Positions 40,855-46,456 of a stretch of 64,000 nt of DNA are shown here, piece by piece. The stretch comes from Streptomyces sp. NBC_01317 (GTDB taxonomy: Bacteria; Actinomycetota; Actinomycetes; Streptomycetales; Streptomycetaceae). The DNA lies in assembly GCF_035961655.1 (NCBI RefSeq), contig NZ_CP108393.1, positions 5,999,001 through 6,063,000 of the forward strand, written 5' to 3'. A program made the translations under genes and the position numbers. Under the pieces are notes generated by a model. It worked only from the letters and a program-made list of their open reading frames with translations. It made no database searches and was not told the DNA's origin. The stretch's first letter is position 1; each line of letters begins with the position of its first letter.

Positions 40855-41229
40855 CCCGCGTTCCGGCGCCCGTACGACAGGACTCCGCCGCTCTCCGTGA
40901 AGAGCGACGAGAGCCTGACCAACCCTGACGGGCCATCGGGCTTCGCGAGATCCGTGCCTGCGGTGCGCCGCGACGGCCGGGCCTAAATATTGACGAGCAG
41001 GTGGAGAACGGTTCTGAACTGCATGTTTCCAAGGATCGATCGATTGCCGGTACACAACGGGTGCACGCGGGGTTGCTCCCTAGCTCGTCGGTGGCAGCCT
41101 TGCTGCTCGTCCTGCGGCTCCGTTTTTCCGACCGTGTGCAACAAGGCAGCAAGGATCCGACAGACTTCAGCTCGTTGCCATTGGTCACAGCCGTCAGGAA
41201 GCCGTTCCAGGCAGCGAAGCACCGATTCC
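40855..41229. other. Left edge of low-GC island, no gene supported
   Basis: No convincing gene. Base composition begins to drop around 40980 (AAATATTGACGAGCAGG) and the sequence lacks Streptomyces codon bias in all frames. It may hold the eroded 5' part of the regulator pseudogene that follows. No integrase, tRNA or direct att repeat was seen. Confidence 0.5.
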
Positions 41230-42056
41230 CGGATGCTCCGTGCCCGTACGGGCCCTTCCGCCGTCGGTGGCGACGACATCGACGGCGTACGGCAGATCAC
41301 GGCGGCATTCGGCGCCGCAGATGAACGTCGTGGCGGTTGCCACGGCTTGACCACTATCACGGCCTACCTCGCCAATACGGCGGCTCCGGTGCTCTGCGGC
41401 CGTTTCGGCACCGAAGCCTTACGCCGGTCCGCCTCCGGCGCCGTCGCCGAACTCGCCTATCTCGCGGGGTAGAAACATCACGACCTCGGACAGGAAGGCG
41501 CCGCTCAGCGTTACTACCAGGTCGGCTACCTGCCCGCCCGCGAAGCTGACCTCAGGGCTCATGCCGCCTGGATGATGCGCGCCCTCGCGCACTAGTCACT
41601 CAGCTCCAAACAGCCACACCGCTGCGTCGCCCTTGTCGAAGGCGCCCTCACTCGCGGCCTGGGCCATGTGGACGGCCGGATCGAAGCGCTTCTCCGCATC
41701 ACTCACGCTGTCGCCGACACTGTGGCCAGCCACACCCCGTACACGGACCGACCTTGCCGATCACGTCGGCACCGAGCAGCAGCACCATGACGCTCTGCCC
41801 CGGGACTCGGAGAAGTACAAGCGCGTTCACGCCCTCAACCAAGCCGACCTCGGCGACAGCCTCGCGGCCGAGGCGCGTGCGGACGAGGCGGTCGCCGCCT
41901 GGACCCATGCACTGGTCCTCTTGGAGGGCATGACCTCGGACCGAACCCGCGAAGCGATTACCTCCATCTGCTCCGCGCTGCTTGGGTCGAAGCTGATGTC
42001 ATCCCGAAAGAGTCCGTGGACACCACAGCGCTGCCCTTCGGCAGTACTTGACTAAC
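41230..42056 (+). pseudogene. Decayed XRE/TPR-type transcriptional regulator
   Basis: Remnant of the Streptomyces regulator family with helix-turn-helix and TPR-like repeats (same family as the intact gene at 50767-52335). From about 41275 the frame reads VRQITAAFGAADERRGG, later ALRRSASGAVAELAYLAG, then a stop (TAG at 41470-41472) exactly where family members have a Trp (LAGW). Reading continues with KHHDLGQEGAAQRYYQVGYL until a second TAG at 41593-41595, then ALVEGALTRGLGHVDGRIEA, and then shifts frame near 41750 to DSEKYKRVHALNQADLGDSL. The two nonsense mutations and a frameshift mean that it is not functional. The DNA-binding N-terminus is not recognisable. Confidence 0.85.
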
Positions 42057-42172
42057 GGTGCATGTGTTCCCTTGGAAGGCTGGGGGTGAGCAGAGTCCGA
42101 TCCATGTTCAGCTTTTCGGCGCGCCGGAGTTTCATACTGGGAGCGCGCTCACGCTTTCAAGAGATTCGGGGA

Positions 42173-44497
42173 TTACTCCAGCTCTGCAATATGGTGAGCC
42201 TGGGGGCTGAGATGAGGGTGTCTGGCCAGAAGGTCTTTCGCTAGGGTAAGATCTTCCTGCGCTTGGCGATTCAAACCTACGCGTCGATAATTTATGATCC
42301 GCGTCTTGAGTGCCATGAGCAGGGTTTCGCTCGGAACATCTCGCGCGGCTTCCGTAGTGATGATCTCCGTGAATTTATCGATGGCTTCAGTGGTTTCCCC
42401 GGCACGGCTAAGTGCAACACCAAGCTGGTGAAGTAATACGAGATCTGTCGGGGAATATTCCACGGCTCGCCGCAAAGCGTTGACACGACCAAATTTGTCT
42501 CGCTGGGCGTCACATACTCTTCCCTTTGTGCTGTACGCGAGTCCGCCGGTGAACCGGCTGGCGCGCGCGCAGGCGACATCTGCAAACTTTATGGCTTCCC
42601 CAATCCTGTTGCGCGCGAGTTCGTAGCTTGCGCTCATCGCAAATACGTAAGCACTGGTCGGTGCGACATCGCGCGCCTGTTTAAAGAGTGCGCCAGCGGC
42701 GTCCATGTTTCCAGAGAACGTTTCAGACTCGCCGCGCCTGCAGAGGATCACTCCCCGCTTCTCGCTATCTGCTTCAATTCCGTACCTCTCGAACACTCCG
42801 ACGAACCTTTCCACCTCCCATGATTTCAGCTCCATTTGCTGCGTGTACTGCTGAACTCGGCGACGGGCGCCGGTCTCTAAATCGCTAAAACGAGCTAACT
42901 GGTTCGCTGCGAAAGAGAGGGTGATGGGTAGGCTGCTGTAGGTTGCCTGTCCGTCAGCCGGATGCACCTGCCGGCTCACTAGAGTCGCCTCTTCCAGTTC
43001 GTGTAGAGCTGAATCAAGACGTTCGCGCGGAATTTCTGTAGCGAGTGCGAGGAGGTTATCCCCGGGCGGCGCTTCGAAGATGGACATGACGCTCAATGTG
43101 CGTTTTGCGTCCACGGATAGAACGTCCCAGATATTGCGGAAGCTGAATTCGAGTACCGGTGAATCTTCATTTTGCACTGCGTCGAGTGCTTGATTGAGGT
43201 CGCCATGCAATTTGTATCGACCCAGAGTCCACTGGATTGCCAATGGGAGACCTCCGCAGGCTTTATTTATTTCGTTAATTCGCCGTTCTGTTAGTGGTAG
43301 GTCGATCCGGAGTTCTCCAGACTTGACCGCAACGAAGTCGCGAGTCTCCTCGTGGTTCAGTTCGGGGACGGTGACAGGGTGCTCCCATCCGCCAGTCTTG
43401 CGGCGGCTCGTTATGATGACCTTGGCTTGTGAGGATGGAGGTAGGTTCTGAATGAAGGAGATGATTCTCCCGTCGTCGACGGTCTCTAGATTGTCTAGGA
43501 CGATAAGTGTGGGCCAAACTGAAAGCCATTCCAGAACGAGTTTCTTTTTGTCGTCAAGAATAGCAGGAGGTTCCTCGCCGAACAGCAATAGGACCTGATC
43601 GAGAAGGCCTTCGAGGGAGTATAATGTTCGGATCTGCGAGCGTGAAATACCCCCAAATGTGAGTGCGGTCTCCTTTGCTGTGAGCTGCAGGATCGCTTCA
43701 AACTCTCTCTGGGCGTAGAAGTGGTAGGCGGCCCAAGTGACGAGAGCTGATTTTCCGACACCTCCAGGTCCGTGGACGTTGATGATCCAAATTCGGGGAT
43801 CTTTGGTAACTGCTGAGATCAACTGGTCTCGCAATTGGTCCCGTCCAACGAAGTACTGGAAATCCTTCTCTAGGAGGCGATAGGTTCCTGTATCCACGGC
43901 GAATGGAGTCTTCGATTGTTCCCGTTCAAGGCTATCTTGATCCGCTCTTTCTTCTAGGTCGTCAAGAAGTTCCTCGAGCTCCTCTCTGTTGTCCAGTCGA
44001 ACGGTTGAATCACCGCGGCGAAAATATATTTCGCCGCGACGGAGACCATATGATTCTTTTGGTTGGAAGTCATTTTTTACGAGGGAAGGAGTGCGCCGCT
44101 TCCTTCTTTTGGCAGCTGCTCTCACTAAAATTACAGCAAACCATCGCGGTTCTCCTGCGTAGCGTAGTTTATGCTGGATTATGTCTACTGATATTTCCAG
44201 CCCTGTCGCTCGACGAACTTTATCGCGGAGGAGTTTCGCATCATATGGCAGTTCGGAACTGAGGCCCACCGGTACCCAGGTTTTATCCTGGACGCCGATA
44301 ACAAGGTAGCCACCCCCCGTATTTCTCATGGCGACCGCATCTTTAGCAAAAGCGGCTGCGTCGTAGTCGCTCTCAAGTCGGAGGAGCTGTTTGAAATCCA
44401 GCCACTCGCATTCGCCGCGACAATCAATGAGATATTTGATCGCGTCGAGGCTCAGGTCCCCGTCTCGCACCATTCGTTCGATTGTCGCGAGGTTCAC
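42173..44497 (-). CDS. AlbA_2-STAND NTPase-TPR protein (candidate NLR-like defence protein)
   Basis: A 774-residue protein in visibly lower-GC sequence than its surroundings. Residues about 18-125 form a Schlafen AlbA_2 domain (ECEWLDFKQ, GGGYLVIGVQD). Residues about 215-420 form an NB-ARC-like STAND ATPase: Walker A GPGGVGKS at 243-250, Walker B TLIVLDNLE with D335, VIITSRR at 360-366, and GLPL at 416-419. A winged-helix-like part follows and the C-terminal 200 residues form TPR repeats (ESETFSGNMDAAGALFKQA; HQLGVALSRAGETTEAIDKF). Such N-effector/STAND/repeat layouts are used by bacterial antiphage NLR-like proteins: repeats sense a phage protein, the ATPase oligomerises, the AlbA_2 part acts. 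The function is inferred. GTG start with AGGAG almost abutting it; no partner gene nearby. Confidence 0.88.
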   Translation of the reverse strand: MNLATIERMVRDGDLSLDAIKYLIDCRGECEWLDFKQLLRLESDYDAAAFAKDAVAMRNTGGGYLVIGVQDKTWVPVGLSSELPYDAKLLRDKVRRATGLEISVDIIQHKLRYAGEPRWFAVILVRAAAKRRKRRTPSLVKNDFQPKESYGLRRGEIYFRRGDSTVRLDNREELEELLDDLEERADQDSLEREQSKTPFAVDTGTYRLLEKDFQYFVGRDQLRDQLISAVTKDPRIWIINVHGPGGVGKSALVTWAAYHFYAQREFEAILQLTAKETALTFGGISRSQIRTLYSLEGLLDQVLLLFGEEPPAILDDKKKLVLEWLSVWPTLIVLDNLETVDDGRIISFIQNLPPSSQAKVIITSRRKTGGWEHPVTVPELNHEETRDFVAVKSGELRIDLPLTERRINEINKACGGLPLAIQWTLGRYKLHGDLNQALDAVQNEDSPVLEFSFRNIWDVLSVDAKRTLSVMSIFEAPPGDNLLALATEIPRERLDSALHELEEATLVSRQVHPADGQATYSSLPITLSFAANQLARFSDLETGARRRVQQYTQQMELKSWEVERFVGVFERYGIEADSEKRGVILCRRGESETFSGNMDAAGALFKQARDVAPTSAYVFAMSASYELARNRIGEAIKFADVACARASRFTGGLAYSTKGRVCDAQRDKFGRVNALRRAVEYSPTDLVLLHQLGVALSRAGETTEAIDKFTEIITTEAARDVPSETLLMALKTRIINYRRVGLNRQAQEDLTLAKDLLARHPHLSPQAHHIAELE

Positions 44498-44945
44498 TCC
44501 TGGGCACTCACTTTCTGGTCGGACGTCAGTAGGTTCAGCATCGTATCGGCTCTCCTTGCACGAGGGGGCCTTTTTGGGAACCCTTCTGAAAACGGCGTTT
44601 TCCTTCGAGCGGCGCAGTTCGTCAGGTGTAGCTGGATGGTTCGGGGGTGTGACGTGGAGGGGCTCATCGCCGCACGTCTGCCTTAGGCCGTCTGTTGCGA
44701 TGGCCGTTCAGCAGGAAAGTGGGTGACGGCTCGGAATGTATGGCCCGGTGTCGCGACTGAGGGCCGCCACCCGAAGTGGGTGGCGGCCCTCAGTATTTGA
44801 CACTAGTCAGAGAGTCGACCGAGCGGTGCTTACGCGGTGCGCAGGAGCCGGAAAACCGATAGAAGCAACGAGAACTGCCGAACAGTGTTTTCGCAGCTCG
44901 CAGCCGGTTTCCAAGACTCCCTTCCAGGTCGTCTAGCTGGCTTTC
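44498..44945. other. Right edge of island between NTPase and glnA
   Basis: No gene is supported in these 448 bases. They contain the upstream region of the NTPase gene with a small palindrome GAAAACGGCGTTTTC (44588-44602, 7-base arms), a strong 17-bp terminator hairpin (44756-44794), and about 150 bases of mixed composition directly after the glnA stop. Short open frames here show no codon bias. Confidence 0.55.
44756..44794 (-). terminator. 17-bp hairpin terminator downstream of glnA
   Basis: Perfect stem ACTGAGGGCCGCCACCC (44756-44772) with its complement at 44778-44794 and a 5-base loop GAAGT. It is 151 bases beyond the glnA stop and is the most likely end of the glnA transcript. It also shields the NTPase gene from glnA read-through. 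Confidence 0.8.
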
Positions 44946-46355
44946 CTAGATGTCGAAGTACAGCTCGAACTCGTGCGGGTGCGGGCGCAGCTGGATCGGG
45001 GCGATTTCCTTCGTGCGCTTGTAGTCGATCCAGGTTTCGATCAGGTCCGCCGTGAAGACTCCGCCCGCCTGGAGATACTCGTTGTCCGCCTCTAGGGCTT
45101 CCAGGACCGCCGGGAGCGAGGTGGGGACCTGGGCTACGCCCGCGTGCTCCTCCGGGGCCAGTTCGTAGAGGTCCTTGTCGATCGGCTCCGCCGGCTCGAT
45201 CTTGTTCTTGACGCCGTCGAGGCCCGCGAGGAGCAGGGCCGAGAACGCCAGGTACGGGTTCGAGGACGGGTCCGGGGCGCGGAACTCGACGCGCTTGGCC
45301 TTCGGGTTCGAGCCCGTGATCGGGATGCGCATCGCGGCGGAGCGGTTGCGCTGCGAGTAGACCAGGTTGACCGGGGCCTCGAAGCCGGGGACCAGGCGGT
45401 GGTACGAGTTCACCGTCGGGTTCGTGAAGGCCAGCAGCGACGGGGCGTGCTTGAGGATGCCGCCGATGTAGTAGCGGGCGGTGTCCGACAGGCCCGCGTA
45501 GCCCTGCTCGTCGTAGAACAGCGGCGTGCCGCCCTGCCACAGGGACTGGTGGACGTGCATGCCGGAGCCGTTGTCACCGAAGATCGGCTTGGGCATGAAG
45601 GTCGCGGTCTTGCCGTTGCGCCACGCGACGTTCTTCACGATGTACTTGAAGAGCATCAGGTCGTCGGCCGCCGCGAGCAGCGTGTTGAACTTGTAGTTGA
45701 TCTCCGCCTGGCCGGCGGTGCCCACCTCGTGGTGCTGGCGCTCGACCTGGAGGCCGGAAGCCTCCAGCTCCAGGGAGATCTCGGCGCGCAGGTCGGCGAA
45801 GTGGTCGACCGGCGGGGCCGGGAAGTAACCACCCTTGTAGCGGACCTTGTAGCCGCGGTTGTCCTCCAGGGCGCCGGTGTTCCACGCGGCTGCCTCGGAG
45901 TCGATGTGGTAGAAGCTCTCGTTCGACGTGGTGTTGAAGCGCACGCTGTCGAAGACGTAGAACTCGGCCTCGGGGCCGAAGTACGCGGTGTCCGCGATGC
46001 CGGTCGACGCGAGGTAGGCCTCGGCCTTCTTGGCGATGTTGCGCGGGTCGCGGCTGTACTGCTCGCCCGTGATCGGGTCGTGGATGAAGAAGTTGATGTT
46101 CACCGTCTTGTCACGGCGGAACGGGTCGACCCGGGCCGTGGACAGGTCCGCGCGCAGCGCCATGTCCGACTCGTGGATGGCCTGGAAGCCGCGGATCGAC
46201 GAACCGTCGAAGGCGAGCTCCTCGGCGGGGTCGAACGCCTTTGCCGGGATCGTGAAGTGCTGCATCACGCCAGGCAGGTCGCAGAAGCGGACGTCGACAA
46301 ACTTGACGTCGTTGTCCGCGATGTACTTCTTTGCCTCGTCGGCGTTCTGGAACAT
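44946..46355 (-). CDS. glnA: Type I glutamine synthetase
   Basis: Glutamine synthetase GSI-beta, 469 residues: makes glutamine from glutamate, ammonia and ATP, dodecameric, cytoplasmic. Signatures: FDGSSIRGF at 49-57, [10 protein letters not shown] at 126-135, the ATP-binding [18 protein letters not shown] from 256, NRSAAMRIP, and the adenylylation site [11 protein letters not shown] with Y397. GlnE at 1717-4782 is the expected modifying enzyme. The ATG at 46355 has GGAGGAGG upstream. Canonical GlnR boxes are at 46457-46494, so transcription should rise under nitrogen limitation. Followed by a strong terminator. Confidence 0.98.
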
Positions 46356-46456
46356 CCAGCTCCTCCTCCTCCCGACCCGAGGAGGGGCGGGGGTTTGTCG
46401 CTCGGTGGTGCGGCCAGTGCGGTGGCACACGCTGGACCCGACCTTAGGTTTCCGGG

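Follow-up and report, generated by a model that had tools for sequence, protein, structure and literature searches.

In a 64,000-nucleotide stretch of the 8.07 Mb genome of Streptomyces sp. NBC_01317 (contig NZ_CP108393.1, positions 5,999,001 to 6,063,000; hereafter called the window), one intact open reading frame (ORF) encodes a protein of 774 amino acids that joins an N-terminal AlbA_2 domain to an NB-ARC-type STAND ATPase and a C-terminal TPR array. We consider it probable, at roughly two chances in three, that the gene by itself specifies an NLR-like immune receptor that moves horizontally, with putative abortive infection via a Schlafen/SAMD9-type RNase output. One small bacterial protein, intact and widespread, would then unite two eukaryotic antiviral or cell-death modules, namely an RNase of the Schlafen/SAMD9 type and the switch known from Apaf-1 and CED-4. 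The effector-switch-sensor, NLR-like layout had been proposed in an original prediction made from the DNA sequence, and profile searches, structural modeling, and evolutionary evidence speak for it.

Pfam, alignment, and predicted structure agree on the three parts named in that prediction, and the P-loop ATPase is complete, with Walker A, Walker B, and GLPL motifs. In the predicted structure, the middle part of the protein can be superposed on that of CED-4, of Apaf-1, and of plant resistosomes. With the whole model as query, the top Foldseek match was PH0952 (PDB 6mfv), with an E value of 1.5e-13 over 619 columns and a TM-score of 0.24 to 0.28. No bacterial full-length AlbA_2-STAND structure is present in the VIA structure lists, an absence that applies to those lists only. 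Mean pairwise identity across 25 aligned sequences is 60% for AlbA_2, 64% for the NB, 50% for the ARC and winged-helix domain (WHD), and 57% for the TPR parts. As a separate observation, the winged-helix region holds an L-P-I-T motif at residues 523 to 526 (window 42920-42931, minus strand) that is invariant in 165 of 165 sequences. Its position is presumably near the MHD motif site of plant NB-ARC proteins, and the nucleotide-contact histidine of that motif may be replaced in the AlbA_2-NB-ARC-TPR protein.

The N-terminal domain has the AlbA_2 (Schlafen core) fold and is similar to the catalytic lobe found in Schlafen nucleases. The carboxylates and the lysine that are essential in SLFN11 have counterparts here, with D34 providing an aspartate in place of glutamate (E214), and none of E29, D34, and K36 varies in the 163 full-length sequences (163/163) that have letters at those positions. 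PMC9482658 describes the E209A, E214A, and K216A mutants of SLFN11 as inactive nucleases. Judged from these residues, the AlbA_2 domain is probably RNA-cutting, as a Schlafen-type RNase. A conserved basic loop (residues 126-138) has a median of seven lysine or arginine residues among 165 sequences, and the predicted local distance difference test (pLDDT) score of the model is below 50 at residues 130 to 134 within it. AlbA_2 modeled alone from seven sequences reached a pLDDT of 68.7, weaker than the full model (85.9). The active-site stretch is also matched by CbCash (PDB 9ylu), a solved protein of 297 amino acids, at an E value of 0.01; no paper on it was found in our search of the open-access literature, a scope outside which bioRxiv and most subscription papers fall. 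The domain could instead be non-catalytic, binding nucleic acid as a sensor or scaffold while oligomerization itself is the output. That the SAMD9 Alba domain was first described as nucleic-acid-binding (PMC13245274) fits this idea, as does the observation that the fit to the AlbA_2 model is about equally good for SLFN5, which is nuclease-deficient, and for active Schlafens. However, binding alone would not require invariant E29, D34, and K36, and the corresponding SLFN11 substitutions abolish nuclease activity, and thus we regard a binding-only domain as very improbable.

A homology search that scored 7997 candidates returned 351 proteins at an E value of 1e-3 or lower. The best 120 of these 351 relatives share 52 to 100% identity with the query, cover 93 to 100% of it, and are 718 to 819 amino acids long; source names among these best 120 include Streptomyces, Kitasatospora, Actinomadura, Lentzea, Micromonospora, Nitrospirae, and Dehalococcoidia, and thus several phyla. 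The same N-L/F start is retained in aligned relatives. When residues 1 to 195 were used alone, 116 proteins were recovered, of which 111 are full-length (690-830 amino acids) and five are shorter (443-653 amino acids), and Haliscomenobacteraceae, Fimbriimonadales, Fermentibacter, and Dictyobacter were added. This AlbA_2 subfamily is tied to the AlbA_2-NB-ARC-TPR architecture within the length limits of the search.

Within Streptomyces the gene is patchy. Whole-genome draws, which overlap one another and each count the own genome, placed it in 3 of 295 and 3 of 353 Streptomyces genomes (the same three, one with a truncated copy) and, in wider draws, in 2 of 394 genomes for the family, 1 of 394 for the class, and 1 of 396 for the phylum. 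A contig search gave six loci, of which five have a full-length gene and the sixth (L009) has no more than a distant AlbA_2; the handles L002, L048, and L006 denote one and the same place. A phage origin was rejected, as 50,697 phage records gave zero matches and viral contigs a single one, to a distant STAND protein at 24% identity (residues 216-637). A plasmid origin was likewise rejected, as the plasmid search yielded 18 records with distant NB-ARC/TPR proteins only, none spanning 80% of the query. Three of these 18 plasmid proteins (from Rhizobium, Anabaena, and Planococcus) were inspected and have no AlbA_2 domain and no Pfam match ahead of NB-ARC at an E value of 0.01, a pattern that suggests possible effector swapping on NB-ARC-TPR cores. 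A Planococcus plasmid protein (L047:4518-7145) combines NB-ARC and TPR parts with a C-terminal cold-shock/OB-type domain (E value 1.1e-4) and no Pfam-recognized N terminus, and recalls part of the SAMD9 layout.

The gene is horizontally moving and has spread between hosts. Its guanine-plus-cytosine (GC) content is 53.5% (55.6% at third codon positions, GC3) versus 71.5% for the remaining window, the minimum among all 2325-base stretches of the window, and it starts 448 bases downstream of glnA (44946-46430, same strand), in agreement with the low-GC location beside glnA that was noted originally. All seven copies measured have a GC content below that of their own flanks: besides the window, the gene and flank values are 57.2 and 69.1% at L004, 55.9 and 70.6% at L005, 57.2 and 70.7% at L006, 33.5 and 53.2% at L007 (Saprospiraceae), 57.6 and 68.3% at L008, and 57.5 and 68.3% at L013. 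Convergent NUDIX and regulator genes come after the gene at L004 to L006. The same block is present in the window (41228-44582, compared with L004 13885-9905), where the NUDIX gene has lost about 500 bp and the regulator remnant has its first 140 residues unmatched and the rest split across frames. The window and L004 proteins are 92% identical, with nonsynonymous (dN) and synonymous (dS) substitution rates of 0.044 and 0.98 (ratio 0.045), and dN/dS is 0.043 versus L006; the L005 comparison was left out because dS was saturated. Because the ORF is intact and dN/dS is low while the NUDIX and regulator companions decayed, the gene has been retained by selection. The ORF is under purifying selection and was kept after its companions were lost.

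Two other observations concern the surroundings of individual copies. In genome G094 (L014:7725-9861), the copy ends near residues 169 to 177 at an insertion sequence of the ISL3 family whose terminal repeats match, and the remaining part of the broken gene was not found within the 20 kb read. At L004 (18874-21268), a relaxase gene downstream of the gene (E value 1e-8) and MobC/NikA-like genes have relatives at about 87% in L006, and it is possible that a mobilizable element carries the L004 locus. As an empty-site test, stretches of up to 1.5 kb below glnA at 29 other loci were compared with the window; at these 29 loci the sole alignment was a piece of 44 columns in L019 (window 44754-44794), and some relatives have other stretches in common there. 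Because nearly nothing aligned there, the insertion point is not cleanly demonstrable.

Neighborhoods were compared at eight loci (the window, L004-L008, L013, and L014), with genes called by crude criteria (length and GC3) that may miss small ones. The PADLOC input comprised 6 of the 12 other L014 genes, 3 of the 19 L004 genes, one L006 gene, and, for the remaining loci and the window, 58 pooled proteins of which 30 were re-scanned singly. In G094, adjacent genes for an MkoA-like helicase (E value 1.8e-169) and an MkoB-like protein (E value 1.2e-132) lie 4 to 9 kb from the broken copy (L014:143-5121) and are followed by a gene for a HATPase_c protein; on the opposite side of the copy is a lanthipeptide cluster with a lantibiotic dehydratase and a LanC-like cyclase (L014:10728-15937). 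At L004, a helicase-PLD protein about 3 kb from the gene matches MkoC and MkoA (E values 1.5e-41 and 9.5e-39), and at L006 an ATPase matches the candidate family PDC-S27 (E value 2.7e-21). No defense gene was identified in the window or at L005, L007, L008, and L013; the pooled scan also gave mad2 (E value 4e-17) and PDC-S07 (E value 1e-13), both somewhere among the 28 proteins, from any of the pooled loci, that were scanned in the pool only. Four further matches were judged to be look-alikes: mad3 at L008:43-1371 (E value 3.9e-53), which we take from its own sequence to be an ABC-type ATPase, dCTPase at L013:13668-14213 (E value 2.9e-8), C3a186 for a window amine oxidase (E value 1.5e-13), and JetC at L005:701-2134 (E value 2.6e-6). 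MkoB-like genes occur at 13 places in 12 of 121 Streptomyces, with an expectation of about 0.00024 per 20 kb. Because any of many defense families would have been noticed, proximity to Mokosh-type genes is suggestive only of a defense association. The original proposal holds in part: the NLR-like layout is supported, the antiphage function is putative, and the defense neighbors are inconsistent, being Mokosh-like at two of eight loci, a weaker candidate at a third, and none identified at five.

This inconsistent context would also suit an NLR-like protein that acts in conflict or stress rather than against phages and controls dormancy, development, or competition via RNA cleavage as a regulated toxin. 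Strong purifying selection on the sensor would be compatible with a conserved endogenous or stress signal. Nevertheless, the patchy presence, the transfer between hosts, and the Mokosh-type genes nearby in two Streptomyces argue against such a role, which we consider unlikely. Rather improbable, in our estimation, is a transcriptional regulator in which AlbA_2 binds DNA and the NB-ARC and TPR parts sense a metabolite or peptide, like the AfsR/SARP-type STAND regulators of Streptomyces. Some SARP-type regulators do have NB-ARC-TPR cores, and the STAND part is 27% identical to a matching Streptomyces BTAD regulator. In addition, some relatives bear the NCBI names "RNA-binding" or "putative DNA binding domain-containing," and the fold is close to that of an AlbA_2-like structure related to RecG. 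However, the N-terminal part is AlbA_2, and Pfam at an E value of 1 detects no SARP winged-helix, BTAD, or other winged-helix DNA-binding domain, and therefore the SARP/AfsR assignment was rejected as the main reading. The invariance of residues that are catalytic in Schlafens and the patchy, cross-phylum distribution also speak against a regulator, as do the neighbors, which across the compared loci are neither always metabolic nor, apart from the block shared by L004 to L006 and the window, constant.

Table 1. Features of the AlbA_2-NB-ARC-TPR gene and its surroundings, in window coordinates.
Feature	Position	Strand	Remarks
AlbA_2-NB-ARC-TPR gene, 774 amino acids, GTG start, intact	42173..44497	-	
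SLFN_AlbA_2 domain, residues 29-168	43994..44413	-	
Schlafen-type active-site residues E29, D34, K36	44390..44413	-	Aligned with SLFN11 E209, E214, K216
D71, aligned with SLFN11 D252	44285..44287	-	Kept in 164/165
Conserved basic loop RAAAKRRKRRTPS, residues 126-138, candidate RNA-contact loop	44084..44122	-	
NB-ARC/WHD switch, residues about 199-564	42806..43903	-	
Walker A GPGGVGKS, residues 243-250	43748..43771	-	G243/G246/G248/K249 in 165/165
Walker B LIVLDN, residues 331-336	43490..43507	-	D335/N336 in 165/165
C-terminal TPR array, residues about 576-760	42218..42772	-	
Upstream stretch alignable with L004/L006, presumably promoter and leader	44498..44582	-	blastn block 41983-44582
Decayed remnant of the regulator gene found downstream of the gene in L004-L006	41228..41974	+	DNA identity 78-85%, two frames
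NUDIX gene-end remnant; the NUDIX gene of the relatives has about 500 bp more	41983..42086	+	

Returning to the immune-receptor reading, we can outline how the protein might work. By comparison with the STAND class, the resting protein would be held off by its ADP-bound NB-ARC/WHD and TPR array until a ligand of phage origin, or one induced by phage, binds to the TPR sensor. Nucleotide exchange and oligomerization could then build an apoptosome- or resistosome-like assembly, as the fold and the invariant motifs imply. Such an assembly would pair the N-terminal AlbA_2 domains into a two-lobed nucleic-acid cradle, and the E29/D34/K36 site would cut RNA, most likely tRNA, so that translation stops and infection is aborted. 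By analogy, the RNase probably acts on tRNA. PMC9482658 describes two lobes per chain and a need for dimerization in SLFN11, and the review PMC13245274 lays out the same logic for SAMD9/9L, in parallel to Avs proteins.

At slightly less than even odds, we tentatively extend this scheme to a large bacterial family of single-chain "tRNase resistosomes," in which an Apaf-1/CED-4-like NB-ARC assembly pairs single-lobe Schlafen domains into a tRNA-cutting cradle, as a functional counterpart of SAMD9/9L that keeps the canonical Schlafen site and the canonical Walker A. AlbA_2 as the effector of a STAND protein had been called poorly studied, and our open-access search indeed found no paper on a bacterial AlbA_2-NB-ARC-TPR protein; a term search of PMC7159879 found neither "AlbA" nor "NB-ARC." Both halves are known separately, from bacterial Schlafens, from Avs and bNACHT proteins, and from animal SAMD9, and their combination is the new part. 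If the proposal is true, prokaryotic equivalents of SAMD9-type receptors become directly testable, and the family offers a minimal system for how STAND assembly switches on a tRNase.

Among the closest known systems are SAMD9 and SAMD9L (PMC5445408, PMC13245274, and PMC12331169), with which the window protein has AlbA_2, P-loop, and TPR parts in common. The SAMD9 core architecture, as given in PMC5445408, comprises AlbA, SIR2-like, P-loop, TPR, and OB-fold parts, whereas the window protein has no Pfam-detected SIR2-like or OB domain and ends in TPR helices. In addition, the Walker A lysine is replaced by glycine in SAMD9 (GGT/S) but K249 is kept in all 165 relatives examined here, and on these grounds membership in the SAMD9 family was rejected. 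SLFN11 and SLFN13 share the AlbA_2 fold, with an E/E/K site where the window protein has E/D/K; according to PMC9482658, their cores place two lobes in one chain, with a helicase-like C terminus in SLFN11, whereas the window protein has one AlbA_2 lobe followed by NB-ARC and TPRs. The bacterial Schlafens of BREX loci (PMC12839542) are likewise prokaryotic Schlafen-type RNases proposed as abortive-infection effectors but, unlike the window protein, have a minimal histidine kinase and a winged helix-turn-helix as fusion partners. The archaeal protein PH0952 has a STAND switch with a TPR sensor as here, although the overall TM-score is low and the N-terminal parts fall outside the comparison. A comparison with Avs and bNACHT had been called for by the original prediction. 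Among 25 family members scanned with PADLOC at an E value of 0.01, five families match and none is named Avs or bNACHT; PDC-S50 matches 20 of the 25 (in the window protein the match lies in AlbA_2), and each of the other four weakly matches a single member. Avs and bNACHT proteins share with the window protein a single-gene layout of N-terminal effector, central STAND ATPase, and C-terminal sensor, which in the window protein is realized with an NB-ARC-type STAND module and a Schlafen-type effector.
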